Shown here piece by piece: positions 16,901 through 37,122 of a stretch of DNA of 37,122 nt. The position numbers and the translations under genes were made by a program. Source of the DNA: a virus; the IMG/VR virus record IMGVR_UViG_3300008266_000198, positions 1 through 37,122 of that record; one strand, written 5' to 3'. Each line of letters opens with the position of its first letter. Within the stretch, counting starts at the first letter, position 1. The notes under the pieces were generated by a model, which had not been told where the DNA came from, ran no database searches, and saw only the letters and a program-made list of their open reading frames with translations.

Positions 16901-18615
16901 CTATCTAAAACAGAATAATCATCTGTCAGAAAGTTATCTGGACGCAGATCATTATAAGGATAGTTCTGAATAAGACCTTTTCTTGAGTTGTTACCTGCAA
17001 GATTATACTCCAGCATGTTGTTAAACAAGCCTTTTGCAACAATAGTGCGGTTGCCTTCACGCGAACCTCTCAGAATCTCATAACCAATAATGTCTGTTAT
17101 TGGCTGATTGTTTTCATCTACAGGGTGCGCAATATTGTAAAACTCAACACCAAGAACGATAATTTTTGTACCTCCCTGATTGTGAATATGAATTGTTTCA
17201 TTAGAAGGCATTTTGTGGTGCCTAATAGGTTTGCCACATAATGTGTCCCAAACAGGTTCTTTGTCATCAGGATAACGCTCTGTAGACTCCCAGTATGCCA
17301 TGTCACCCTTAGCAATAATAACGCCGCCATCAGCTGTTGTTCCACTGGCGTTGTACCTTGTAGAAGTATCATACACCTGCCACACCTTGTTTTGAGAAGG
17401 TGTCAGTAAGTCTGGACCAGAAACAGTAGTTATGTCAAGTGAATTAGCTGCACGTCCTGGTATATGATAAGATGCTGAACGCGCACCAGTTCTGTATACC
17501 CAACGTATAAAAAATGGGTAGACTTCATCTCGCATGTAACCAACAGTATTTCCTCCACCCCAGTAATAGTCAGCAGGATACTCAGCGGCTACCCATAAAG
17601 CTCTAATCTGATTTGCTAAAGGCTGATAGTTAAAATATGGTTGTGTAGTAACACCAGTTCTGATGAGATAGTCGTTTACCTCAAACATTTTTTCACTCTT
17701 CTCATATACCACAGATTTAAGTGGTATCTGACCAATGTCAACTGTTGGCAGACTTTGCAAAAACAAATCAAGCGTAACTTTGCTTTGTCGTATAGAGTAA
17801 TATCCAATCTTTTTGGCTATAGTCTGTTGGTTGACAACAGCTATTACTACCAATTCATATTCCTCAAAATTCTGGTCAAGATTTGTAACAGTAATGTCAA
17901 TAGAACCACCAATACCTGAGTGATCCCAAATAGTTTGGGGATTGCTTGGAATAGAATAGTCTGTAAGACGCACTCCATTTTCAGAATAAGCTACACATGC
18001 TATATAACTACCATTGTTCAGCTGACCGGCACCTTGAGCCTTGCTAACATTCACACAAGGTTGTGTAACCAAAGGATGAAGCCTTAACGCATCACAGTCC
18101 AGCTCTTCTGAATAAAGTGGTTCATAGCAATTAGGATCAGGATTTGCATCTCCTATTACCTTGTATGGCACACGATCAAGATTCAGAACACGATCAGGAT
18201 TCAGGTTGTCTGCAAAATATACAGAAGTAGTACAGTCATAGTTACCTTTGACTACTGCACTAATCATGTGTGTTTTTTTGAAATTAAGACATGCTGCGTT
18301 AACAACTAACGAGTAACTGCAGTCACTTTCATCAAAAATTCCTATCTCTGAAGAACTGTCATTGGTAGAAAATATCACCCAGCGGGTCTGAGAGATATTA
18401 GCAAAACCTATAATGCTGTAAGGAACAGTAGCACAAAACTCATTAGAAGGTTCGTTTCCAATAGAGCCTGACTCTCCATAATGAGAGTTGTTGATAGCAT
18501 TCACAGCGTTAAGCCAAAGCCCCTCTGACATATAAATGTCAGTATAGTCTTTGACCATACCTTTGTGAAAACTGTTCGTCTCAGTTACACTGCTTTTGCT
18601 AAAGTTCTCGCTCAT
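13945..18615 (-). CDS. 1556-aa tail stabilisation / muzzle protein (P22 gp10-like Tstab)
   Basis: The N-terminus NSFHKGMVKDYTDIYMSEGL, then NAVNAINNSHYGESGSIGNE and PSNEF, fits the 'N.F.KGM.KD......G....A.N.......G..G...NEPSN' signature I recall for crAss-like stabilisation proteins. These are distant P22 gp10 relatives forming the tail tip or muzzle. Length agrees with the giant crassvirus versions. Much of the protein is beta-rich with Tyr/Asp/Asn repeats, consistent with propeller-like domains. An unusual Gly/Ala/Val hydrophobic region lies at ~636-729 (FAIAAVVGAGIALLNALG and onward). Its ATG overlaps the TGA of the upstream peptidase-like gene (ATGA) and its own TGA overlaps the next start, so translational coupling is likely. 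It follows three ring/neck-type genes. Role: tail tip assembly and host-surface engagement. Confident at fold-family level, less so about exact position in the tail. Confidence 0.8.
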   Translation of the reverse strand: MSENFSKSSVTETNSFHKGMVKDYTDIYMSEGLWLNAVNAINNSHYGESGSIGNEPSNEFCATVPYSIIGFANISQTRWVIFSTNDSSSEIGIFDESDCSYSLVVNAACLNFKKTHMISAVVKGNYDCTTSVYFADNLNPDRVLNLDRVPYKVIGDANPDPNCYEPLYSEELDCDALRLHPLVTQPCVNVSKAQGAGQLNNGSYIACVAYSENGVRLTDYSIPSNPQTIWDHSGIGGSIDITVTNLDQNFEEYELVVIAVVNQQTIAKKIGYYSIRQSKVTLDLFLQSLPTVDIGQIPLKSVVYEKSEKMFEVNDYLIRTGVTTQPYFNYQPLANQIRALWVAAEYPADYYWGGGNTVGYMRDEVYPFFIRWVYRTGARSASYHIPGRAANSLDITTVSGPDLLTPSQNKVWQVYDTSTRYNASGTTADGGVIIAKGDMAYWESTERYPDDKEPVWDTLCGKPIRHHKMPSNETIHIHNQGGTKIIVLGVEFYNIAHPVDENNQPITDIIGYEILRGSREGNRTIVAKGLFNNMLEYNLAGNNSRKGLIQNYPYNDLRPDNFLTDDYSVLDSGSANPGTIEAASKLSNYKRDIFSFHSPETNFVKPYLGGNYVKLYTEERGTVTGRYEFPEKHPKHVLLSDGAFAIAAVVGAGIALLNALGKTTYSGTVEAGVVVAGASTGSSTESGPATILPALIAGAVQNPVGAGVNAVGVGLLAASSSLYYFGQGIDQVLEVLRNLSKDRQYMLQYNSHGFYSSFSNVSNSSVPGGLQKSIRRQIVPSSAKYVGSGLHDFDATYRINNLNRNKYVALKLSSTVSDPVSGQDNTKHRVKDGGVTHSEPLKNEITTTTVAYYGAVKVDFQNQYGQLSSVVQLPTGSCVFLTSSETEQKFISGAIFGGDVYINRYTEKNPYMFFNTWMYDMPNRTEYDYRNYVNGPAPRYWVNFEKYDAQDFNISVFPNGIFTLPIIDLNTPSDFHRLDRPSSITGVLTVRNSYAYLFHNGVRDFFTESELNMAYRDYGQEPYEKFYDVYGNSFNDLSTMFRSDLITKPIFFKYDLSLSASKLFNNFASWASILPRDYDPRLYTTCFEYYPDRGIYSLQQQSGLRRDNWRNYLALNYKDFSGKISTIKNLNATGAMILFEDAEPVMFVGVDQLQTTGGVKLTIGDGGLFQGNMQALVNADDTIGYASSISSRAAVNTPHGLFFVSQQSGKIMQYAGGMTEISRNGMKFWFNENLPSKFLKAYPDYPYYDNPVVGIGVQAVYDPQYELVYFTKRDYVPLRNDLLFDDPSGVPYFVTVSGFANNPVITKTFCTFDNAAVFKPCHWTVSYDPKNKQWISFHDWKPTLLIPSFRHFLSVKDNAVWRHNNRWDSYCNYYGTNYAWEIEYPVVTPNAVTTLRSVEYTLDVYKFYNDGKDFHHVIDENFDRAVLYNSEQISGLLKLRIKGKNAPLDLVNYPQISTSGIEILFSKEENKYRFNQFWDVTKDRGEFTTAREPMWNTECAGVQKIINPDYIDYFKSPLEHKKFRHYGNNIILRKNVSGDKKMVLKLTNSKHINSSR

Positions 18616-18986
18616 TGTTCTTTGATGTTGTAGTTTTTAGATTTCAACACCTTGTATACTTCTTCTGTAAGATATCCTATAAGCCATGCTGTAGACTCTT
18701 CATCTTTTATTTCAATGTCAGAAGTCATCTTTACAGCAAGGTGAAAAACCTCGTGCGCAATGAGATTGTGAGAAAGTTGTTCTTCAACCAGAACTATGTA
18801 ATATTCATGCCCTTTAGAACTAAACAACTCAAAAACAACGCCGTCTGCGTCCATCACATCTATCATTCCGTTGCACTTCTTATCAAGTTGAGCCTGCATA
18901 TCTTCCATGTTCTTTACAACACAAAGATTTGCGTACCTGCTATAAATTGAAACAGGTATTTTGCGCTTAAATATTTTACTGGCCAT
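18612..18986 (-). CDS. Small zincin-like metallopeptidase (HEVFH)
   Basis: A 124-residue protein with IAHEVFHLAVKMTSD: an HExxH helix at residues 78-82 preceded by hydrophobic residues, and an acidic EES at 96-98 about 14-16 residues later that could give the third zinc ligand. The N-terminal half is a short alpha/beta region ending in YYIVLVEEQLSHN, the usual edge strand before a zincin active-site helix. No signal peptide is visible. It starts 4 nt after the TAG of the ring-type gene and overlaps the muzzle gene by 4 nt, so it is embedded in the tail module. This suggests processing or assembly of tail proteins, or a virion peptidase acting during entry. The family is recognised by motif only; catalytic activity is not proven. 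Confidence 0.7.
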   Translation of the reverse strand: MASKIFKRKIPVSIYSRYANLCVVKNMEDMQAQLDKKCNGMIDVMDADGVVFELFSSKGHEYYIVLVEEQLSHNLIAHEVFHLAVKMTSDIEIKDEESTAWLIGYLTEEVYKVLKSKNYNIKEQ

Positions 18987-26727: not shown

Positions 26728-28092
26728 TTAAAGCTGTACTGCAAGTTGTACATGATTGCCGGCACTGGTTAGCAAAGTGTTCATGTAAGTCTCAAAATTA
26801 GTATTCCGAGCAGACACAACAACTTTTACCAGATACTGGTCAGCATCCATCGTTCCAGATGGGTTGCTTGTGCGAGGTACACTGTGCAGAATGTGATAAG
26901 CAAAGTAACGAGTAGTGCGGCTCAAATCAGACAATGTGGTGTCATCCAATACTTCACGCATGCGTGGATCAGTTTGGAATGGCTCCTGAGCATAACGCTT
27001 AGAAAGAATAAGTTCACGAATCAATGTTTCACCAAAACCTTTGCCTTGATATGCACTCTGCAATTCAGTGACAGTAAAACAAGAAGTTTGACAAGGATCA
27101 CCTTCAGTATCTACAACAGCTGCATAAATTTGAATAGGCTCAAGTTCATAATGATCCATTGGAGAGAAAGAGCAGTTGCCAAATGTAGTGTCAACATAGG
27201 CACCGGTCAAAACCAACATTGCGTCATTAGTATCAGGAGCAGAAGCACCTGTTTCAAGAACGTAGCTTGAAGTCAAAACTTCCTCGTATACTTTCAAAGC
27301 AACAGTATTACCAGCAACTGTAGCAGCTTTGCTCAAGGTTAGTGTGCCACCGGAAACAGCAGTAATAAAGGTGTTTTGTGGAATACCAGCACCAGTGATC
27401 ATCTGACCTACAGCAAGATTTGCAGGAGTAGATCCAGTTGCGCCAGACGTGTCGTCAATGGTCAATGTAGTGCTGTTGGTAGTAGCAGCGCCAGCAAAAC
27501 CTCCAACTTTAAAGTTGAAAACTTTTGCATTGACAAACTCTTTCAAAATGGGAGACTCGTTAATCTGATCTTTCCACTGAAGCAATACACCTACAGGATC
27601 TGCATTGTTATTATCTGAATCACAGCAAGGAGTTTTTGCATCAAGCGTCTGATACAAGTTATGAGTCAGAAAACGCAGTGCTGGCGAACCTTTTACATCA
27701 AGACGCAGACGATAGGTAGTGTCACAAGCAATAGTTGTACAGTTAAGTACAGATACGCCAACAACCTCATTGACAGGGGCAGCAGGCTCAGTAACGTAGA
27801 AAGCACTGACGTACTTTGGGTTGATGCCTTTTGACTTTACAGTCTCTTTGTATCCACCATGGAAAGGACCAATCTTGTCGGTAGTGTGAAAACTACCCTG
27901 GGCAAGATAAAAAAGTGGATTGCCTGAAGAACCTGTGTAGGTAGGAGTACCTGCAAGGTTTTGAATTTGGTGGTCAGAAGCTCTGACAACGCCAATTTGG
28001 CCAGCAGTCAACGTAAGAGTGCTGCCAGGAGTACTGTTGAAACCAGCGGTTCCAACAAGCATTTTTTGAAATGCGTGGGGAAAATAAGCCAT
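26728..28092 (-). CDS. 454-aa virion structural protein
   Basis: N-terminus MAYFPHAFQKMLVGTAGFNS. A loop-rich beta domain at ~200-265 holds the phrase VGQMITGAGIPQNTFITAVS, a small sandwich often seen inserted in phage coat, tube and fibre proteins. The C-terminal third (ELILSKRYAQEPFQTDPRMR and RTTRYFAYHILHSVPR) is mixed alpha/beta. Cysteines appear in pairs (TPCCDSD, DPCQTSCF). It has 48 nt before it, and a strong terminator directly follows, consistent with an abundantly made product. In crassviruses an auxiliary capsid protein is encoded in this general region, and this is a candidate. I cannot exclude a tail role. The gene call is firm; the role is inferred. Confidence 0.7.
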   Translation of the reverse strand: MAYFPHAFQKMLVGTAGFNSTPGSTLTLTAGQIGVVRASDHQIQNLAGTPTYTGSSGNPLFYLAQGSFHTTDKIGPFHGGYKETVKSKGINPKYVSAFYVTEPAAPVNEVVGVSVLNCTTIACDTTYRLRLDVKGSPALRFLTHNLYQTLDAKTPCCDSDNNNADPVGVLLQWKDQINESPILKEFVNAKVFNFKVGGFAGAATTNSTTLTIDDTSGATGSTPANLAVGQMITGAGIPQNTFITAVSGGTLTLSKAATVAGNTVALKVYEEVLTSSYVLETGASAPDTNDAMLVLTGAYVDTTFGNCSFSPMDHYELEPIQIYAAVVDTEGDPCQTSCFTVTELQSAYQGKGFGETLIRELILSKRYAQEPFQTDPRMREVLDDTTLSDLSRTTRYFAYHILHSVPRTSNPSGTMDADQYLVKVVVSARNTNFETYMNTLLTSAGNHVQLAVQL

Positions 28093-28140: not shown

Positions 28141-28584
28141 TTATTGTAAGAACAAGAGTTTATACTTGGTTGAATTGATCAGACTCTTGATTAAATCAAG
28201 ATCATTCACAATCTCTGAGTAAGGCATTACTGTCTGTAACTCATTGACCATTGTATAGAGCTCTCTCATATAATTTACACAATCTTCTACAGAATACAAA
28301 GACCTTGGTGATTTTTCTGAAGAACAATCAAGAAGCATTTCACGTGCGCCCTGAAAACCTTCAGCAATACTGTCAACCATGCCTGGAAGTCCTTCATAAA
28401 AAGAAGCCAGTGCTGTATGGGCAGCATATGAACCAGGCCCTGTTATCTTCAGATGAAATTTGTGGGTAGATACAGAAGCGTTCATCAATTCTGATACAAG
28501 AGCTGCTGTTTTGCCCTCCAAACTATCAGCAACAGGCGTTGCCATGGGACGCTTAAGTCTATAAGTAGCTAAAGATGTTTCCAT
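28141..28584 (-). CDS. Dps/ferritin-like 147-aa protein
   Basis: Residues 41-76 read HKFHLKITGPGSYAAHTALA followed by SFYEGLPGMVDSIAEG. Aligned by eye to the E. coli Dps core (H51...H63...D67...D78...E82), the spacing matches exactly at H44, H56, D71 and E75. D67 is replaced by Ala60. The G-x-x-F/Y turn and the helix ending in D-x-I-A-E are also alike. The rest is helical, with a Cys pair (C86, C102) absent from Dps. I recall a phage family of this kind annotated as DUF5856; that number is from memory. It overlaps the 232-residue gene by TAATG. Possible roles: metal or oxidant protection of DNA, or a purely structural four-helix protein. Fold is likely; ferroxidase activity is uncertain because one ligand is missing. 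Confidence 0.7.
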   Translation of the reverse strand: METSLATYRLKRPMATPVADSLEGKTAALVSELMNASVSTHKFHLKITGPGSYAAHTALASFYEGLPGMVDSIAEGFQGAREMLLDCSSEKSPRSLYSVEDCVNYMRELYTMVNELQTVMPYSEIVNDLDLIKSLINSTKYKLLFLQ

Positions 28585-29282
28585 TAGTTATTTGTTTGTG
28601 CGTTTGTCTTAGCGCGTTGATACTGGTTAAATAGTTCTGTGTCACCGGCCAAGATAGAAGCTGCTTCGTCAATGATCATCTCAACAATATCATCTTTGAG
28701 TTCTGACTCTACATTTGCAGTAACAGCACCTGTAGCAGGATTTACACAATTTAGAAAACTTACAGGAGTAGGAAACCTATAGAATGTAAGACGTGGGTTG
28801 ATCACTTGAAACTCATCATTATGATAGATTCTCAAACGATTACCCTGCATCGTTACAAAAGTTTCACCCCAATCTGCACTAGGTTTTCTAAATGGATCTG
28901 AAAGCAAAGAACTAACATCTGCAACCGCTACCAAATAGCAACTCATCATTGCATCAGGACAACACTCTGTTCTACTATCAATTACTAATGACTTGAAATG
29001 CAAGTAATTAGACGGAAGAGTAGTTGTTTCAAAATGCAAATTCTGATTTGTACCAGTCATAGGAACTTCTGTCAGAAGTGTTTGCAAGTCATCTATCAGC
29101 ATGATGGTAGACTCATCACCTTGTTTCCTGAGGTTGTTACCTTGCAACTGACGTCGCACCCACTCTATCTGAGCCTTGTTAAACGCTTCAGCAATCTGCC
29201 AACACTCAATGTTGTCATAGTCCAGAGAAGCAAGCTTGTTAAGCCGCTGCTTGATCTTTATCTGTAATAGATTGTTGTTCAT
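28584..29282 (-). CDS. 232-aa head-tail connector-type protein
   Basis: A helical N-terminus (QIKIKQRLNKLASLDYDNIE, then CWQIAEAFNKAQIEWVRRQL) is followed by a beta-rich middle (residues ~75-185) and a C-terminal helix (DDIVEMIIDEAASILAGDTE). This is the organisation of head-completion or adaptor proteins, and the position four genes after the portal supports it. LPSNYLHFKSLVIDSRTECC at ~89-108 resembles 'LP.DY......' segments of crAss-like connector proteins from memory. It ends in a TAATG overlap with the Dps-like gene and starts 18 nt after the 338-residue gene. Likely binds below the portal. Assignment is by layout and position, not a sequence search. Confidence 0.65.
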   Translation of the reverse strand: MNNNLLQIKIKQRLNKLASLDYDNIECWQIAEAFNKAQIEWVRRQLQGNNLRKQGDESTIMLIDDLQTLLTEVPMTGTNQNLHFETTTLPSNYLHFKSLVIDSRTECCPDAMMSCYLVAVADVSSLLSDPFRKPSADWGETFVTMQGNRLRIYHNDEFQVINPRLTFYRFPTPVSFLNCVNPATGAVTANVESELKDDIVEMIIDEAASILAGDTELFNQYQRAKTNAQTNN

Positions 29283-29300: not shown

Positions 29301-30317
29301 TTAAGCGTTCCAGAGTTTTTCAACATTTTTGGTGATATCTGTAAGAATTTCCTCATTTAGAGGATTTTTCAGATATTCAACCACATCAGAAGCGTTTTTG
29401 CCTAGCATAGAACTGCTCTTCATGTGGTATATGAAGCCATCACCACGCGTAGCAATGATCTTATAGAAATTTGCGTCTTTCACCATAGAACGCAGTTTGA
29501 GCGTTTCCATATCCAAAGAAACAACTTCTAAAAAGCGCTGTGCTGTTTTACGCTTGTCTTTGTCAACTGTTTCTCCGTTGATATATTTATCCATGTTGTC
29601 ATAGAGAATATCAAGTGGAGTAGACTTTTTGTATTGTGTGGAATTAGGATCCACAACCTTGCATACATAAAGCAACTTGTTAGCGTTTTTGTCAAATAGC
29701 TTTTGAAGCTCTGCCAAAGCCTTGTTACGCATCTTTTTAACTTCTGTACGAATAGAAGCTGTCTCTTCATAACGATCAAGATAAAACTTGAAAGGAATGG
29801 CAGAAGAACGCGCTTCTTCAAGACTTTTTGCAACAATAGAGAAACCTCCTGCTTCAATTGCTCTGAGTTTAATCAAGTCATAAGGATCTGAAGAAGCGTC
29901 TAAAAAGATTGGCTCATTGCCAAAACGCATCACAATCTTACCCCAAAACTCATCATTGTCTGGACGTAGCAATCTTACTTTGTTCCAAAAATCCTTGTCG
30001 TCAGGGTCAATGATGTTTGCTGCAAGTTCTTTTTCAAGCTGTGATACTGTCATACGAATCTGCTTGATGGCAGCTTCACGCTCATCTTCATTCATTTGCT
30101 TTATTTCAGGAGCAAACTCATTAAGTCCTGTGACATAGCGTTTGATGCCATTGTACTCCAGACATGCTAATTGTTCCTCGTGGAACACACCTTCAAAAAG
30201 TACCATTTGATACTTTTCAAGGCCCATGTTGGCGTTTGCATTGTCAACAAACGGTCTAACAGCAATCGTACTGTTGGTTTTAAAAGCTTGATGCTTTTCA
30301 ATCATTGATACTTCCAT
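29301..30317 (-). CDS. 338-aa conserved capsid-module protein
   Basis: A soluble, charged alpha/beta protein. DPDDKDFWNKVRLLRPDNDE at ~103-122 leads to FWGKIVMRFGNEPIFLD, DPYDLIKLRAIEAGGFSIVA and NKALAELQKLFDKNANKLLY. These fit a conserved protein I recall directly after the capsid gene in other Bacteroidota phages, with no assigned activity. No catalytic signature is seen. The ATG at 30317 gives MEVSMIEKHQ; an ATG four codons later is possible. A 228-nt hairpin-rich spacer separates it from the capsid gene, so its expression relative to capsid may be reduced. Likely a minor head protein or assembly factor. Confidence 0.7.
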   Translation of the reverse strand: MEVSMIEKHQAFKTNSTIAVRPFVDNANANMGLEKYQMVLFEGVFHEEQLACLEYNGIKRYVTGLNEFAPEIKQMNEDEREAAIKQIRMTVSQLEKELAANIIDPDDKDFWNKVRLLRPDNDEFWGKIVMRFGNEPIFLDASSDPYDLIKLRAIEAGGFSIVAKSLEEARSSAIPFKFYLDRYEETASIRTEVKKMRNKALAELQKLFDKNANKLLYVCKVVDPNSTQYKKSTPLDILYDNMDKYINGETVDKDKRKTAQRFLEVVSLDMETLKLRSMVKDANFYKIIATRGDGFIYHMKSSSMLGKNASDVVEYLKNPLNEEILTDITKNVEKLWNA

Positions 30318-30545: not shown

Positions 30546-32189
30546 TTAGAACGAGCCGCCAGTGATGGGGTTCCTCATCACAATCTTAAGAACCTTAGTA
30601 GGGTCTTTCACCCAGATGGAAGGCATAGTCTGGGTCATGAATACGCGGTATCCATTAAAGTTTCCAGAAGAAGCGAACCCTTGAGTACGACCCATGTAAT
30701 CCATGGTACCGTTTTGATAGAACCATTTGAGCTCACTGTCCCACTTCAACTTCAGCAAGAAGATGTTGTCGTTGGTGTTGTCAGTGATGTCAAACACGAT
30801 GAAGTTGTAAGAAGACAATGGGAAGCCATCAATGATGGGATTCTCAATGTCGTTGGTATGTACGTTGTCAAACGCTGGGTTCAACACGAACTTTACGTTT
30901 GCCAAGAAAGGAATAGTATAGCTGGTGAAAGCAAAACCAAAGTTCAGGTCCATGGCGTTGCTACCGCTGATAGCGTTCAAACCAGACTTGTCAATGTTGG
31001 CAACCAGACCAGTACCTACAGTGTTAAAGGCTTCTTTCTTGATAGCTTCATTGACCATCTTCATACCGGCCATGCCAGTTTGAACAATGATCTGACGCTG
31101 AGGATCTGGGCCTTTGAACTCAACTTTACCATTGTAGAAGTTGAAGATCTCAGAGCGGAACAACTCAAGGTTGAAAGAGCTCTTATTGTAAATACGCTTA
31201 AAAGAGTTGTCAAGCTGGCTCCACAAACCTACAGACAGGCGAATGTCGTCTGGACCATCTTGCTTAATGCGTCCACCTTGTCCCCACATGAGGTAGGTTT
31301 CAATGTCATTAGCAATTTTGGTCAAGTGAGCAGCTTCCATCTTGGTGACAAAAGAACGAGTCAAGGTTCCAGAGTCATAAGCCTTCTTGATGTATTCTTT
31401 ACCCATCTTAGACACCATAGCGTCAATGTTGGTCAAAGAAGGATCTTTGGCAATGTTGGCGTCAAATGAGCGCCAGATCTCTGTAACAGGTACAGTACCA
31501 TCAGCGTTCATGCCACCTTTCATCATAAGCTCTGCACGGCTAGAAACAGAGTAGTGAACGTGAGCTTCTGCGCCACCTACAAAGTTGTAGAACTCGCGGA
31601 AGCCAGCACTCAGTTCTCCGATGTCAGAAAAACGCTCACCATACTCCCCGCGGGCAGAACCTTTGCGGAAGAATTTGGTGCCAGGCTTAAGGTACACTTT
31701 GCTCAAAGTCTTCTGATTGTCGTTGTTCACCAACTGAACAGTGTATACGAAACCATCGCCAGAAGGAAGAATGTCCTCAGCTGTAATGTAAAGTTCAGCA
31801 CCTTTGTACTTGTCATAGGTGATGATGTCACCATGACCAAAGCTGCGCTTATTCAATTTGATCTTGAAGGTTGTACCATCTTGACCAAGAGATGTTAAGC
31901 TAGGCTCTACGTCCTCTACAATGTAGGGAAGGTCCTGAACAATTGGGGTTTGCCACTTGTATTCACCACGAGGGTTGTCTACAGTGATGGTGTTCTTGCC
32001 ACCGAAAGATGCCATCTGGTAAAGAGGCATTTCTACCTTTTGGGTCATGGCCCAAAGATCAACAGGACCCAAGTCCATGGGTTCTGCGCTCTTCAGCATG
32101 TTCACCAAGTGGTAGCTGTCCACGTGCGAACTAACCTTGTAGTTAGTGTCGCGCAGGAAGAGACCGTTGTTTAAAACTGGTGTGCTCAT
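30546..32189 (-). CDS. Major capsid protein (HK97-type, crAss-like)
   Basis: The 547-residue protein is encoded two genes after the portal and directly after the scaffold-like gene, the standard position for the major capsid protein. The N-terminal region (GLFLRDTNYKVSSHVDSYHL, then LGPVDLWAMTQKVEMPLYQM) and the central TMRF-like part (AEAHVHYSVSSRAELMMKGG) fit crAss-like capsid proteins as I remember them. Composition is balanced, without Cys-rich or low-complexity regions, unlike the appendage genes. GC content appears higher and codon use more regular than in the appendage cassette, as expected for a highly expressed gene. A strong hairpin begins 26 nt after its TAA. HK97 fold and role are inferred from synteny and pattern; a virion mass-spectrometry test would be decisive. 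Confidence 0.8.
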   Translation of the reverse strand: MSTPVLNNGLFLRDTNYKVSSHVDSYHLVNMLKSAEPMDLGPVDLWAMTQKVEMPLYQMASFGGKNTITVDNPRGEYKWQTPIVQDLPYIVEDVEPSLTSLGQDGTTFKIKLNKRSFGHGDIITYDKYKGAELYITAEDILPSGDGFVYTVQLVNNDNQKTLSKVYLKPGTKFFRKGSARGEYGERFSDIGELSAGFREFYNFVGGAEAHVHYSVSSRAELMMKGGMNADGTVPVTEIWRSFDANIAKDPSLTNIDAMVSKMGKEYIKKAYDSGTLTRSFVTKMEAAHLTKIANDIETYLMWGQGGRIKQDGPDDIRLSVGLWSQLDNSFKRIYNKSSFNLELFRSEIFNFYNGKVEFKGPDPQRQIIVQTGMAGMKMVNEAIKKEAFNTVGTGLVANIDKSGLNAISGSNAMDLNFGFAFTSYTIPFLANVKFVLNPAFDNVHTNDIENPIIDGFPLSSYNFIVFDITDNTNDNIFLLKLKWDSELKWFYQNGTMDYMGRTQGFASSGNFNGYRVFMTQTMPSIWVKDPTKVLKIVMRNPITGGSF

Positions 32190-32236: not shown

Positions 32237-33487
32237 TTATCGTTTAAAAATGTTTGCAGCAGGTCGTGGAATCTTTCTCACAGGTGCTTTGTCTTCTTCC
32301 TCTTCTCTGACATTGGACGCGATTTTGCGTGCTTCTTCAGTTTTTAGTTTTCTGACAGTGTCCTGTGTCACCTCGTTTTTAGCTTGCTTTCTGATATTTT
32401 CCTTGTAATCATCAGGATCAGATAGCAACCACAGAGTTTCAGCAATAAGGTCATAGCGGGGGGTTTTTCCAAATTGGTGGTCTTCTAAGAGCTTGCCCAA
32501 CAGGTTTGTAGGGCGTCCAGTCATGCTTTGGTACTTGGCTGTTGTCAGCTCCTCCCAGAGGAACTTCTGACGCTTGGCGTCTAGCTTGATACCGTTAACT
32601 TCAGCAGGTTTTAAGGTGTTGTAGATGTTTTCCATGTACTCTTCCTTTTTACGCTGCTGCTCCTGACGGAACTGCTCTTGTTGCTGAAGCTTGGATTGGA
32701 TCATTTCTTCCTGCATGGCATCAAGTTTTGGCTTGAACTGCTGTGCTTTTTTTGCAATGATCCCTGATTCCAACCACTCTTGGACTTGTTCTTCCATCAA
32801 TTCCGCGTCACCATTGCCAAATCCAGTGGCTTGTAAGTACTGTCTTACAATAACCTCCTGGTGCTCAGGTGTCGCAGGGTTAAGTTCACGCACTTCCTCA
32901 GTCTGAGCAAGTGCCCTAAATAACCCCTTGATGTCAGTGCCGCCCTTTGCTACGTATTCTGCAGCATACTGCAACTCTTGAGGTAACGATTCAAAGAACT
33001 CTTTTGGAGTCTGTTCTCTCAGAGATCTCTCTCTTTCTTCCAGGTTGGCAGAGATCAACTCTTTCCAATCCTTTACTGAGTATTCCTCCAGTGGTTTTTC
33101 ATCTTCAAAAGGAACTAGTATACCTTCTTCAAAAAGTTTGGAGAATGTTTCTACCAGTCCACTTTTGTCAATCTTCTTGCGACCAGGTTTCTGTTTTGAG
33201 GCAGAATCCTCGTCATCATCTTCTAAATCTGCGTCTAACTCAGCAATAGCTGCCTGAGTTGTTGCAGCATTTGGGGTTTTTTCTTTGCCATCAGGATCAT
33301 CGCCATCATTTTGGTTTTCATCAAGAAACCCTAGATCTGGAGAACCTTCCTTAGAAAAGAATCCTGGTTTTGAGCTTTGATCATCATCTGCGGTCACAAC
33401 GCTTTCAGCTCCTGGCATTGGTAAAAAATCATCAATACTGTCAAGACTTACGCTGGATACAGATGTTTGTTGGTTGTTACTGTCCAT
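32237..33487 (-). CDS. Scaffold-like acidic/coiled-coil protein
   Basis: The 416-residue protein has a disordered, highly acidic N-terminus (Asp/Glu-rich at ~55-100, with LDADLEDDDEDSASKQ). A charged helical middle follows, with a Gln/Glu coiled coil at ~260-285 (QQQEQFRQEQQRKKEEY). The basic tail, VRKIPRPAANIFKR, would suit capsid binding. Acidic N-terminus, coiled coil and basic C-terminus, encoded between portal and capsid genes, is the classical scaffold arrangement. No protease motif is seen. Its promoter-like element (33541-33555) and a 119-nt spacer separate it from the portal gene, so scaffold and capsid can be made at higher levels than portal. The gap to the capsid gene is 47 nt. 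Confidence 0.75.
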   Translation of the reverse strand: MDSNNQQTSVSSVSLDSIDDFLPMPGAESVVTADDDQSSKPGFFSKEGSPDLGFLDENQNDGDDPDGKEKTPNAATTQAAIAELDADLEDDDEDSASKQKPGRKKIDKSGLVETFSKLFEEGILVPFEDEKPLEEYSVKDWKELISANLEERERSLREQTPKEFFESLPQELQYAAEYVAKGGTDIKGLFRALAQTEEVRELNPATPEHQEVIVRQYLQATGFGNGDAELMEEQVQEWLESGIIAKKAQQFKPKLDAMQEEMIQSKLQQQEQFRQEQQRKKEEYMENIYNTLKPAEVNGIKLDAKRQKFLWEELTTAKYQSMTGRPTNLLGKLLEDHQFGKTPRYDLIAETLWLLSDPDDYKENIRKQAKNEVTQDTVRKLKTEEARKIASNVREEEEDKAPVRKIPRPAANIFKR

Positions 33488-33606: not shown

Positions 33607-36336
33607 TTACTTTTTGTCATATTTGTTTTTATTAGTACGCGCAACTTGCAATTCTTTCTCAGCAATGCGCTCTTTAGAGAGTAATTCTTGACGCTTAAGC
33701 TCTAGTTTTTTCTGTTCTGTAACAGTGCGATTTAACTCGCGATCTCTGGCAATGGCCTGATCAGTTTCTTTTGCGTTTTTCTTGTCAAGATATTCCAAAG
33801 TGTCAATGTAGTCGTTCTGCTGGTTCATGTCGCGATCGTTCATGGCAGTGTAACCTGCAGCTCTGATTTCTGCAACGCGCTCCTGGGTCTCACGATCCAG
33901 CGCGTTTTGCTCAGCTTCAAAACGTAACTTAGCTTCAAGACGCTCTGTTTCAGCTTGTTGACGCATCTGCTCTGTTTGCTGCAAGGCTTCTGTTTCCTGC
34001 ATCTTGGCCCTGGTAGTTTTCTCTTCAATACCTTTCATGACGTGGGTAATTTCAGCCATGGAGTCAGCCTTGACAATGTTGCCCAAATCATAGATAGAAG
34101 CGCCAGAAGTGTTGTTGTTGATGGCAAGACTTCTGATCTGTTCGATAACCTGGCGCTGGTTGACCTTGGTAGAGATAAAGATATTCAGCTCGCGGGCCAG
34201 TAATTCTGTGCCATTCATCTGAAAGTTTACCTTTTCATCCATAGATGTCACATACTGCAAACGCAGCGAAGGACGATTAGAGTGATAGTACTGTGAAAGA
34301 TCTGTGCGCATCTGATGTACGCGCGGCATCAGGTATTCAGAGTGCTGCGTAAAATACACCTCTGTCTGTGAGTAGCTCATGTTGATAGCCTGCTCAATAC
34401 CCTGGGCAGTTTCCTGTGCGTTTACTGCACCCAGACGCTGCGGTGAAATACCTATAGACTCAAAGCACTGGTTCTTAAAGTAGCTGGCTAGTTGTACCCT
34501 TGACATTAGGCGCTGCGTCTGCTCAAGGTTAAGAACCTGGTAGTGCTGAAAGTTCAGTGCGTTTTCTGTGTTGGTGATAGATGTGTCTAGCGGCAACATC
34601 TGAAAGTTCTTCATGGCCACATACGCCTTAGCGTAGTTGTTTTTGCCCCAATCCTCTCCCATGGAGTGACGTGGTAAAGCGTTCTGATCCAGCATAATTA
34701 CTGTGCCAAGCTCGTCAATCAAAATGTCAGCAATTTGGTTGTTGACAAGGTTGTATCCAATCTGGTATGGTTTCATCTTGTCTACCAATGACATAGACTT
34801 GGTGTTGCGTTCTGTAAACACAGCACCTTCTACCGGCAGCTTGCAGCCATACAACGTAAAGTCACCCTTAAACTGAAAGCGCAAGGGTTTTACGTTTAGA
34901 TACAGTGGCTGAAATCCAAAAGTGTCATTATTGCCAAAGAATGCAGGTCTGTTGGGGCCAACCTTAGTACCTCCCCACACTTCATTAATCCATATCCAAT
35001 CAACATGTTCACCAAAAACAAGGTTCTCACGACTTTTTTTCTTAAGTACTGAAGTGTCATATAGGGGTTTAGTGGTAATCTTGTAGTTCTCATCAACAAT
35101 CATGTCAGTAAGCTCACCATTCTCGTCTACTTTAGAAAGATGTCCTACCATGCGCTGGCTTTTCCAGTAACAAGTTGTAACTCTCAGAAGACTAATGTCT
35201 TGAAAATCCTGAACACTTTCAGACTCATTTACAATTTTCATGATAATATCATCACCAGTGTTCATAAATGCATCACGTGCACTTAAAAACTGCCGCATTC
35301 CTAAAGATGGACCTTGTGTATTCCATTCATGAGAACGTGTAGCATCATAAAAAGAACCATCATTTTGCAGTCCTGGGATCAGATAACCTGCTGAATGTAC
35401 AGGGTAGATCGCCTCTAAAGAAGCAAGCTCCTCGTCTGTCATCATGTAACCATATTTGTCAATGACATCAGCAATGGTCATCAGATCCACACGGCCTACC
35501 CAGTTTGACTGTGATATGTACCTGGCCTCAGGAGACTTGTGGTAAAAAGTAAGCACTGGGTTCCAAAGCTCCACCTCGTAATCATCTTCATTCATCTTAA
35601 AATGCCAGAACTCGCGATCAGCAATGAGCATGTCTTTAAAAGCGAGGTTTTCTAACTCTTTCATGGTGAAACGCTCTTCGTCTACCTCATGCTGGTGTGT
35701 AGCCCATTCCTCTACCATGGAACGGTAATCTTTCTTGAAGAACTCCTCAATTTCTGGCAGAGACTTGAGGCTTTCTGGCGACATCATTTGCTGTGCCTGA
35801 GCAGCCTGCTCTTCATCTTCCATGTTCAGACCCATAGCCTCAATGGTCTGTTGCATCTTGACCTCCGCCTGGCGCACCAGCACTTCCTCCACCATCATTC
35901 GCTTAGCTTCCATCATCTCATTGTAAGACAGATCATCTACTGCTCTATAGGTAATCTTGTCATTGCGCTTAGCAAACTCCCCACACATTACGTTGATAAC
36001 GTTAGGAATGATGGGAAAAAACTTTAGTTCAAAGGCTGACTCATCTTGCTTGGTCAACACGTCAATCAAATCTGCTACTTCATTGTCTTCTTCTACAATG
36101 TAGTCTGTCTTGTCAATGATACCATTAGCCAGCTTGTAGTTTTTTAACAACCTGCGGGCGTTTCTGCGAATCTGCTTGAGACCTTGCATTTCCAACCAGT
36201 CCATGTTCCACGCGCCCCATGCTTCGTCTTTGTCTTTTCTGTTCAAAAACTGCACAGGTTGGGTCAAGGTGCCCATTCTGTTATGGTCTACCTTAGCTCC
36301 ATTCTTGAGCTGTAGTGCGTTGTATACTTTAGGCAT
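33607..36336 (-). CDS. Portal protein (crAss-like)
   Basis: The 909-residue protein directly follows the terminase gene (20-nt gap). Residues ~75-105 (FELKFFPIIPNVINVMCGEF, AKRNDK) fit the 'YPIIPP..N...GE..KR' pattern I recall for crAss-like portals. The central region (~200-640) is alpha/beta with Trp and Tyr content typical of portal wing and stem. From ~755 on it is a long, charged coiled coil (QTEQMRQQAETERLEAKLRF and onward), which would form the C-terminal barrel or crown. Length is within the range of crAss-like portals. It forms the dodecameric DNA channel at the capsid vertex and docks terminase. ATG start; TAA stop with a small hairpin immediately after. Confidence 0.85.
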   Translation of the reverse strand: MPKVYNALQLKNGAKVDHNRMGTLTQPVQFLNRKDKDEAWGAWNMDWLEMQGLKQIRRNARRLLKNYKLANGIIDKTDYIVEEDNEVADLIDVLTKQDESAFELKFFPIIPNVINVMCGEFAKRNDKITYRAVDDLSYNEMMEAKRMMVEEVLVRQAEVKMQQTIEAMGLNMEDEEQAAQAQQMMSPESLKSLPEIEEFFKKDYRSMVEEWATHQHEVDEERFTMKELENLAFKDMLIADREFWHFKMNEDDYEVELWNPVLTFYHKSPEARYISQSNWVGRVDLMTIADVIDKYGYMMTDEELASLEAIYPVHSAGYLIPGLQNDGSFYDATRSHEWNTQGPSLGMRQFLSARDAFMNTGDDIIMKIVNESESVQDFQDISLLRVTTCYWKSQRMVGHLSKVDENGELTDMIVDENYKITTKPLYDTSVLKKKSRENLVFGEHVDWIWINEVWGGTKVGPNRPAFFGNNDTFGFQPLYLNVKPLRFQFKGDFTLYGCKLPVEGAVFTERNTKSMSLVDKMKPYQIGYNLVNNQIADILIDELGTVIMLDQNALPRHSMGEDWGKNNYAKAYVAMKNFQMLPLDTSITNTENALNFQHYQVLNLEQTQRLMSRVQLASYFKNQCFESIGISPQRLGAVNAQETAQGIEQAINMSYSQTEVYFTQHSEYLMPRVHQMRTDLSQYYHSNRPSLRLQYVTSMDEKVNFQMNGTELLARELNIFISTKVNQRQVIEQIRSLAINNNTSGASIYDLGNIVKADSMAEITHVMKGIEEKTTRAKMQETEALQQTEQMRQQAETERLEAKLRFEAEQNALDRETQERVAEIRAAGYTAMNDRDMNQQNDYIDTLEYLDKKNAKETDQAIARDRELNRTVTEQKKLELKRQELLSKERIAEKELQVARTNKNKYDKK

Positions 36337-36356: not shown

Positions 36357-37122
36357 TCACCTCATGTTTTTAAAAGGGCTTCTGGGAACCTTAACCATAG
36401 TAGAGGAGTTGTGAACGTTTCCCATATGACGGAAAGGGGTCACTCTTAATTTAGCATGTTTTTTAGAGTTATCCAAATTAGAATCCTCACGTTCTACACG
36501 CTTAGAGTATCCTCTGTTAGATTCCTGCACCTTTGCAAAAGCTACCAGCGCACAGAAAGCCACCAGTCTGTCCACGTTTAGTCCATCGCGATACGCTGCC
36601 ATCTCTTTTAGCAGCATAATGTCAGGGATGCGCTCAATACCATAGGTTGTCTTGACAATCTCTCCATTGGGCTTGGTCTCCACATCCAACTGCTCTTCCA
36701 GGAACTGGATTGCGTAGGAGATCAGGTTGGTTTTAAAGATTGTTCCTACGTTGCGCCAGCCATACTCCTGGAAGACGTTGGTGTTGCTTTGCAGTTCTTT
36801 TAAAAATAGGATCTGATTTTTAGGAACCAGATAGCGTTGTTTACGCCTGGAGATCATATACTGGATAAACAAGCTGACGTTGTTTTCCACAATGGTCCAT
36901 GCGTTGTAGTATTCAATAAGCATTTCCAGGCGCTCATGGGTCTTGGTAAGGTCATCAAACCTGCCGCACCATGACGCCACAATACCATCGCGCTCAATGT
37001 GCTGCTCAATGGAGCCGTCCATCTTGTGCTTAGTAATCTCCTGCGCGGTCTTGTAGACAAATATGGAGCAGAGCGACTCAGAAGTCGTTGTCTTTCCTTC
37101 GCTAACAGGGTCAATAGACGCA
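36357..37122 (-). CDS. terL: Terminase large subunit, C-terminal part (5' end cut by window edge)
   Basis: The frame is open to the right edge (255 visible codons) and ends in TGA. The visible start reads ASIDPVSEGKTTTSESLCSI, then FVYKTAQEITKHKMDG: the first nuclease strand with catalytic Asp in an S-I-D-P-V context, as in RNase H-like terminase nucleases. LLIEYYNAWTIVENN-type sequence (MLIEYYNAWTIVENNVSLFI) has the Tyr-Tyr-Asn-Ala/Glu-Asn-Asn pattern of crAss-like terminases. GLNVDRLVAFCALVAFAKVQ near the C-terminus supplies the last conserved Asp. The ATPase domain lies outside the window. It packages DNA and cuts concatemers, docking onto the portal encoded next. An internal ATG at 37022 is not the real start. 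Confidence 0.9.
   Translation of the reverse strand, partial: ASIDPVSEGKTTTSESLCSIFVYKTAQEITKHKMDGSIEQHIERDGIVASWCGRFDDLTKTHERLEMLIEYYNAWTIVENNVSLFIQYMISRRKQRYLVPKNQILFLKELQSNTNVFQEYGWRNVGTIFKTNLISYAIQFLEEQLDVETKPNGEIVKTTYGIERIPDIMLLKEMAAYRDGLNVDRLVAFCALVAFAKVQESNRGYSKRVEREDSNLDNSKKHAKLRVTPFRHMGNVHNSSTMVKVPRSPFKNMR

Follow-up and report, generated by a model that had tools for sequence, protein, structure and literature searches.

A Dps-like protein in the virion module of crass-like phages and its N-terminal tag resembling the end of the scaffold-position protein

Gene order and occupancy of the slot

The window, i.e., the whole stretch of 37,122 nucleotides that was analyzed, is a fragment of a crass-like phage. 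The crass-like module order TerL-portal-gene77-MCP-gene75-gene74 is present, with the places of genes 77, 75 and 74 assigned by order (Table 1). The ring gene overlaps the start of a gene encoding a Dps-like protein by one base. That this gene belongs to a virion module had been claimed by an earlier, sequence-only reading of the window and was borne out by the capsid, portal, TerL and ring neighbours.

Table 1. Features of the virion module in the window, in the order of their coordinates from the terminase gene onwards.
Feature	Coordinates	Strand	Basis or remark
C-terminal part of terminase large subunit	36357..37022	-	phrog_6681, 2.2e-18
Portal protein	33607..36336	-	phrog_6547, 1.5e-88
Scaffold-position protein, between portal and capsid genes	32237..33487	-	putative scaffold
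C-terminal motif KIPRPAANIFKR of the scaffold-position protein, tag-like	32240..32275	-	
Major capsid protein	30546..32189	-	Pfam Crass_capsid, 112.8 bits, cut-off 27
Conserved gene between capsid and ring genes	29301..30317	-	crAss gene-75 place, by order
Ring (adaptor) protein gene	28584..29282	-	homologue annotated 'ring protein' in csAssE-Sib
Dps-like protein, 147 aa	28141..28584	-	DUF5856 / phrog_858; ATG start
Tag core R-L-K-R-P, residues 9-13, in the low-confidence tail	28546..28560	-	
Stretch with four conserved Dps ligands H44, H56, D71, E75	28360..28455	-	Ala60 at the D67 place
Next gene, capsid-auxiliary place	26728..28092	-	homologue is 'structural protein' of Cellulophaga phage phi17:2

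The profiles of the ring and the next gene gave no significant match to solved structures, so the capsid-auxiliary place of the latter is a designation by gene order alone. The protein encoded between portal and capsid (416 residues, 86 acidic and 58 basic) is probably the scaffold, judged from its place. In the record of phi17:2, names are given to the neighbouring portal and capsid genes, whereas the gene at this place is listed as hypothetical; the crAss001 atlas makes no mention of gp31. Elsewhere in the window, positions 18612-18986 encode a 124-aa protein with the HExxH-like stretch HEVFH (phrog_1365 at 6.8e-10); the annotation of crAssphage cr11_1 includes a gene for a zincin-type protease.

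The position between the ring gene and the next structural gene, here called the slot, was compared among the best 80 of 112 Dps loci. Of these, 78 have an identifiable ring gene, which precedes Dps by -1 to 18 bp in 75 cases and by 631 bp in the other 3, where a ferritin gene stands between ring and Dps. The next structural gene was located 28-133 bp downstream of Dps in 77 of the 80 loci. The two loci without a ring gene are L016, whose contig begins just before Dps, and L076, where Dps is found elsewhere, near a muzzle-like gene. Dps or ferritin genes beside muzzle-like and cargo-like genes were seen in other crass-like contigs as well (L076:5962-6438, L237:5950-6498). Eleven genomes outside the clade whose capsid gene is related, namely three named phages and eight contigs, were queried for Dps, though not for ferritin, and gave no match. 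The ring and the next gene adjoin in 10 of these 11 genomes; in the remaining one they are separated by a 270-aa ORF, which is read as a homing endonuclease.

Loci were also chosen by their capsid protein. The window's capsid protein as query (set A, best 80 loci) yielded 50 assessable loci after removal of 21 without a ring gene and 9 that were cut off. Their slots contained Dps in 46 cases, ferritin in 2, both in 1 and neither in 1 (49/50 occupied). The capsid protein of a deeper member (set B, best 80 loci, 32 plus 7 not assessable) left 41 loci with Dps in 28, ferritin in 4 and neither in 9 (32/41 occupied); the sets share contigs, and their counts are not additive. Since 10 loci (1 in set A, 9 in set B) have neither Dps nor ferritin in the slot, the protein is not essential. 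In one such slot (L370:10428-11459) there are two ORFs, whose sequences are basic, with many Ser, Gly, Asn and Lys residues. Contig G007 (135,860 bases; L366, L042) carries two similar, non-identical virion modules near its two ends, possibly due to a chimeric or permuted assembly.

Gut anaerobes, proposed as hosts in the earlier reading, found no support: the named phages with a related capsid infect Leptolyngbya boryana or Cellulophaga, or are derived from the human gut. One contig of a bacterial genome, a Sphingomonadaceae MAG, encodes a relative. The same virion genes are present on it, so it is probably a binned phage contig, and no host was deduced from it.

Family, fold and ligand site of the Dps-like protein

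The 147-aa protein matched DUF5856 (PF19174) with 54.1 bits, compared to a curated cut-off of 34.6, and phrog_858 with an E-value of 1e-18. phrog_858 is labelled 'starvation-inducible transcriptional regulator', and RB49 rI.-1, Vi01_092c and Sajous1 gp217 are examples of the family. All 54 submitted members matched DUF5856 and 26 of the 54 matched Pfam Ferritin, both at E up to 0.01. PDB chains of the Dps family were reached by a profile search with the family at 3.2e-5. Positions 18-74 of the family profile pair with residues 27-83 of chain 1f30_A, the stretches being equal in length. From this offset H44, H56, A60, D71 and E75 (codons at 28453-28455, 28417-28419, 28405-28407, 28372-28374 and 28360-28362, respectively) were assigned to chain positions 51, 63, 67, 78 and 82.

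An AlphaFold model was calculated with 54 aligned proteins of 81 as input, copies and near-copies being omitted. It reached a mean pLDDT of 77.8 and a pTM of 0.69, with residues 1-17 below a pLDDT of 50. The helices (22-46, 52-76, 78-87, 99-119 and 125-145) follow the order known from Dps. Among the 50 Foldseek matches listed, all were Dps or other ferritin-like proteins, with a probability of 1.00 and a best E of 2.4e-3, none being below 0.001. A second structural aligner gave Z 15.4 to 8hwz (Dps2 of M. smegmatis) and Z 13.8 to 1dps (Dps of E. coli). In both PDB comparisons the matches listed were Dps or other ferritin-like chains almost throughout. According to the aligner's own note, helical bundles of any kind can come near Z values of this size, and the fold call is therefore based jointly on sequence and structure. 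Taken in this way, a Dps/ferritin four-helix fold with a conserved site is predicted for the protein with near certainty. In the BFVD, three uncultured phage proteins named prohead protease partly match the Dps model, which may point to fusions of Dps domains with head proteins.

For the ligand positions, the window and the best 80 of 112 relatives were aligned (81 proteins, 62 distinct). H41, H44, H56, D71 and E75 are invariant in 81/81, and position 60 is N in 72, A in 7 and G in 2. As 36 of the 147 positions are invariant in this close set, invariance alone is not rare there, and the wider sets give the stronger result. The same five residues are kept in all 43 distinct Dps proteins from capsid-chosen loci, with identities to the window down to 26%; here, position 60 is N in 28, G in 7, D in 4, A in 2 and Q and K in 1 each. 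The four ligands are also kept in 12/12 other aligned proteins, eight of them remote relatives from T4-like, jumbo, other environmental and crAss-like phages (DSL-LC05 being among the sources), and position 60 may also be E or R in this set.

The ferroxidase ligands of Dps are H51, H63, D67, D78 and E82 in E. coli numbering. Four of the five are present and the D67 equivalent is absent, which suggests a weaker second iron site rather than a dead one. Iron oxidation by the Dps-like protein is expected on this pattern, possibly weakened by the loss of the fifth ligand. The sequence-only reading had placed H44, H56, D71 and E75 in the register of E. coli Dps, with Ala60 at the place of D67. ORF, codons and profile offset agree with this assignment, the predicted structure is a four-helix bundle with Dps chains as best structural matches, and the four ligands do not vary freely among homologues (81/81; 43/43).

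The protein thus shares with the Dps family the four-helix fold, the helix order, the equivalents of H51, H63, D78 and E82 and the best structural matches. It differs in the loss of the D67 equivalent in most members, its length of 147 aa, the C-terminal signature PYSEIVNDLD..KS..NS..YKLLFL, the N-terminal tag and the location in a phage virion slot. RB49 rI.-1, Vi01_092c and Sajous1 gp217 belong to the same family by score, and the four ligands are kept in the RB49 and other remote aligned members. In contrast to the slot proteins, these three members show no such tag by eye and have other gene neighbourhoods.

Slot ferritins, N-terminal tag and scaffold-position end

The ferritin encoded within the 631-bp stretch of L025, L037 and L039 has 208 aa; two of the three were scanned and matched PF00210 with 74 and 81.7 bits. 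In L025:5327-5953 and L037:5366-5992 this gene between ring and Dps has a tag of its own, MDNSAxTRMLKR. A ferritin query yielded 66 loci from 68 relatives. In 39 of them the gene follows the ring gene immediately, at a distance of no more than 26 bp; the other 27 do not show this arrangement. No Dps stands alongside in 36 of the 39 slot ferritins, although three of these 36 (L188, L205, L207) are on contigs that break off ahead of the next gene. Across all 48 distinct ferritins, whether in the slot or off it, the ligand-type residues E66, E98, H101, E142, Q175 and E178 do not vary.

When 95 distinct ring proteins (57 with Dps, 26 with ferritin, 2 with both and 10 with none) were placed on a tree, parsimony required 13 changes of the occupant, or 12 without the outgroup. 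The well supported branches force at least 5 changes for Dps and 4 for ferritin; the change count is approximate, since the tree comes from a short search and has long branches. Judged from this tree, the slot occupant switches repeatedly between Dps and ferritin.

The residues preceding the first helix carry a short motif, in which residue 10 is L or I in 80/81 and residue 12 is R or K in 81/81 of the window protein and the best 80 of 112 relatives. Most Dps N-termini hold a core like K-L-K-R-P, M-L-K-R or K-I-P-R-P, with varying length and sequence. Slot ferritins begin similarly (MEKPRILKRPE in L204, MKTIPRPTVF in L343), and MAIQKIPRPTIF is a similar start of the slot-ferritin type from a locus outside the assessable count. 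A variable linker follows the motif in slot Dps and most slot ferritins. Within the first 20 residues, the core L[KQ][RK] was identified in 19 of the 25 distinct slot-ferritin tails (mean of 0.56 and maximum of 4 in 2000 shufflings) and in 0 of the 20 distinct off-slot tails. Of the 54 distinct Dps tails, 47 contain it (mean of 1.5 and maximum of 7 after shuffling). This simple core is absent from 6/25 slot-ferritin and 7/54 Dps tails. The off-slot phage ferritin tails are shorter (median 16 vs. 52 residues, distinct tails), a few of them being long (L189, L212, L217). Across the 571 ORFs of five contigs, the tag pattern was found in 4 of 5 Dps genes and in 4 other ORFs.

A similar motif was found at the C-terminus of the scaffold-position proteins, which end in R-K-[IL]-x-R-P-x-N-I-F-K-R or near it. 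In some genomes, for example that of L030, the likeness reaches the last letters (Dps MQKINRANIF, scaffold RKIQRNTNIFKR). Among the same 571 ORFs, a first C-terminal pattern was confined to the scaffold-position gene (4 of the 5 genomes), and a second one occurred in 5 ORFs, 4 of which are scaffold-position genes. Because these patterns were derived from the same proteins, a separate test was made with a matrix trained solely on scaffold C-termini, the threshold being the 99th percentile of 523 other N-termini. In the best 80 loci chosen by capsid, where a position in the slot was no requirement, the threshold was exceeded by 34 of 48 distinct Dps/ferritin N-termini (AUC 0.95), compared to 4.9% of shuffled tails. 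In the other sets 22/54 Dps, 6/25 slot-ferritin and 0/20 off-slot tails passed, so the resemblance to the scaffold is uneven.

The tag-scaffold similarity score on 48 distinct pairs was 14.9 vs. 11.0 ± 0.43 for shuffled tails, and five other N-termini from the same loci reached 9.8-12.3 against the scaffold end. Own partners exceeded swapped ones only modestly (14.9 vs. 13.8 ± 0.45; maximum of 200 permutations 15.0), and relatedness among the genomes inflates every p-value of these comparisons. Both cores were present in 59 of 122 distinct pairs. The first core residue of tag and scaffold was T/T in 8, T/K-R in 9, K-R/T in 3 and K-R/K-R in 39 pairs (one-sided Fisher 0.001), a co-variation that is suggestive only, as related genomes were counted separately.

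All 10 genomes whose slot lacks both Dps and ferritin keep the scaffold end [IMF]F.R (10/10), in agreement with a scaffold function borrowed by the cargo. The scaffold-place proteins of six sister loci and of crAss001, cr108_1 and cr11_1 end differently and lack the motif, so it may instead mark the clade and serve another purpose. The C-terminal motif of the terminase, examined as another possible instance of the tag, was considered different; TerL of the window (36357-37022) and of G003, G010, G013, G016 and G017 ends in PF[KR]N[MIL][RK].

Proposed role in the phage particle

Related genes are found in several other places of phage genomes. A second clade (L219, L228, L229) shows the order TerL, portal, ferritin and/or Dps, scaffold-position gene. 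The adjoining Dps and ferritin of L228:4297-5241 both start with MALDINK; in L219:6010-6968 the neighbouring Dps and ferritin, located between portal and scaffold-position gene, start with MIDINK and MALDINS. For the DSL-LC05-like group (L086:9992-10354 and L096-L175), the best 80 of at least 596 loci were compared, and 78 of the 80 have a DUF5856 gene that overlaps the stop codon of the portal gene. The structural block of cr108_1 contains a DUF5856-type gene with 32.7 bits, just under the cut-off of 34.6. These placements indicate that such genes settled in head modules more than once. Away from virion genes, the RB49 member lies beside rI and the cr127_1 member between ligase and thymidylate synthase.

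Sajous1 gp217 (DUF5856 at 100.3 bits) is identical to Vi01_092c over 117 residues, and its gene sits two genes before the primase gene. The authors call this Kuttervirus protein a 'ferritin' and report its detection by mass spectrometry, with 10 retrievals, in phage purified on CsCl; low counts, they state, are indistinguishable from cell debris. In the same text, similar infection efficiency is given for TonB- and FeoB-deficient hosts. The Ferrojan horse idea resembles the present case in that a DUF5856 protein was reported with purified phage, and differs in the location of the gene. Phage-borne Dps, along with Mn-catalase, was likewise proposed for iron and oxygen handling in Gratiaviridae and Flandersviridae; in the accessible parts of that work, a slot, a common tag and a swap with ferritin are not described. 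The literature behind these comparisons includes PMC8008677, PMC10172136, PMC7886860, PMC11054128, PMC10136315, PMC10892097, PMC6669764 and PMC7354516.

In the literature, phage Dps genes were read as helpers of host metabolism. The constant slot, the swaps between Dps and ferritin and the scaffold-like tag point instead to a cargo of the particle itself. A virion-linked role of the Dps-like protein is likely on this basis, and for the tag a procapsid docking peptide is the best available reading. The Dps-fold protein of the ferritin superfamily would be made alongside the capsid proteins, and its tag and the scaffold end may occupy one putative binding site on the coat. Subunits or assembled cages would thereby be drawn into the procapsid and remain in or on the virion. 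There, or after release into the next cell, the protein would bind and oxidise ferrous iron, and peroxide/iron damage to DNA would be reduced. We give this course of events as a whole somewhat better than even chances. Packaging had already been suggested by the sequence-only reading and gained indirect support from the fixed slot, the common tag and the one published mass-spectrometry record for a family member. The N-terminal tag and the exchange with ferritin were not part of that reading.

Alternatively, the protein could act late in infection as a cytosolic antioxidant or iron store that never enters the virion, the slot providing late and high expression. We regard this as unlikely, yet it has precedents: help for anaerobic hosts against oxygen was proposed for gut-phage (Gratiaviridae) Dps enzymes (Benler et al.), a Lactobacillus phage carries a ferritin-like gene near replication genes, and other DUF5856 genes and off-slot phage ferritins lie outside virion modules. 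A cytosolic store leaves unexplained, however, why slot Dps and ferritins have a tag that is absent off-slot (0/20) and why this tag resembles the scaffold-position C-terminus.

It is improbable that the protein is packaged as a DNA binder, compacting or shielding the genome and handling iron as a secondary function. E. coli Dps binds DNA via its N-terminal tail, and the tail found here is mildly basic (mean 3.5 K/R, net +1.8). This charge is small, however, and the body carries a net charge of -4.7 on average. Moreover, the protein is replaced in the slot by ferritins, which as a rule are not DNA binders. A replacement of IHF by Dps was rejected, since weak IHF-like matches persist in the contigs of 5 of 20 relatives, one of them over the cut-off; no match to PF00216 (IHF) was found in the 37-kb fragment and no IHF-like match in the 10 sister-clade records searched.

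Least probable of all is a four-helix factor that assists assembly of the capsid or portal vertex without binding metal, the inactive assembly protein of the earlier reading: it would suit the constant place in the virion module and the lost fifth ligand, but is disfavored by four ligands that are invariant down to 26% identity and in 12/12 other aligned proteins, and by swaps with ferritins that conserve their ligand-type positions (48/48).

The reading as a tagged cargo of the procapsid has a known counterpart in the encapsulins. Encapsulins load ferritin-like cargo by short targeting peptides. The comparison is one of function: a ferritin-superfamily protein, in the phage a putative cargo, has a short terminal peptide and goes with a capsid-type shell. 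In the phage, this shell is no dedicated nanocompartment but a capsid that packs a genome and has a portal and a terminase, and the peptide, whose docking is putative, is N-terminal and resembles the C-terminus of the scaffold-position protein. A more general scheme, in which interchangeable Dps and ferritin are loaded in an encapsulin-like manner by a peptide mimicking the scaffold end, and this iron device of the virion protects the genome or enters the next host, is tentative, and we put its chances slightly short of even. The second clade may do likewise with a different tag (MALDINK in L228).

In the open-licence literature searched, no description of Dps or ferritin in crass-like virion operons and no mention of DUF5856 could be found. 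If the proposal is true, a functional link would exist between phage capsids and encapsulins, which are HK97-fold shells, some with ferritin-like cargo. DUF5856 would gain a fold and a role, and iron in phage particles would become directly testable.
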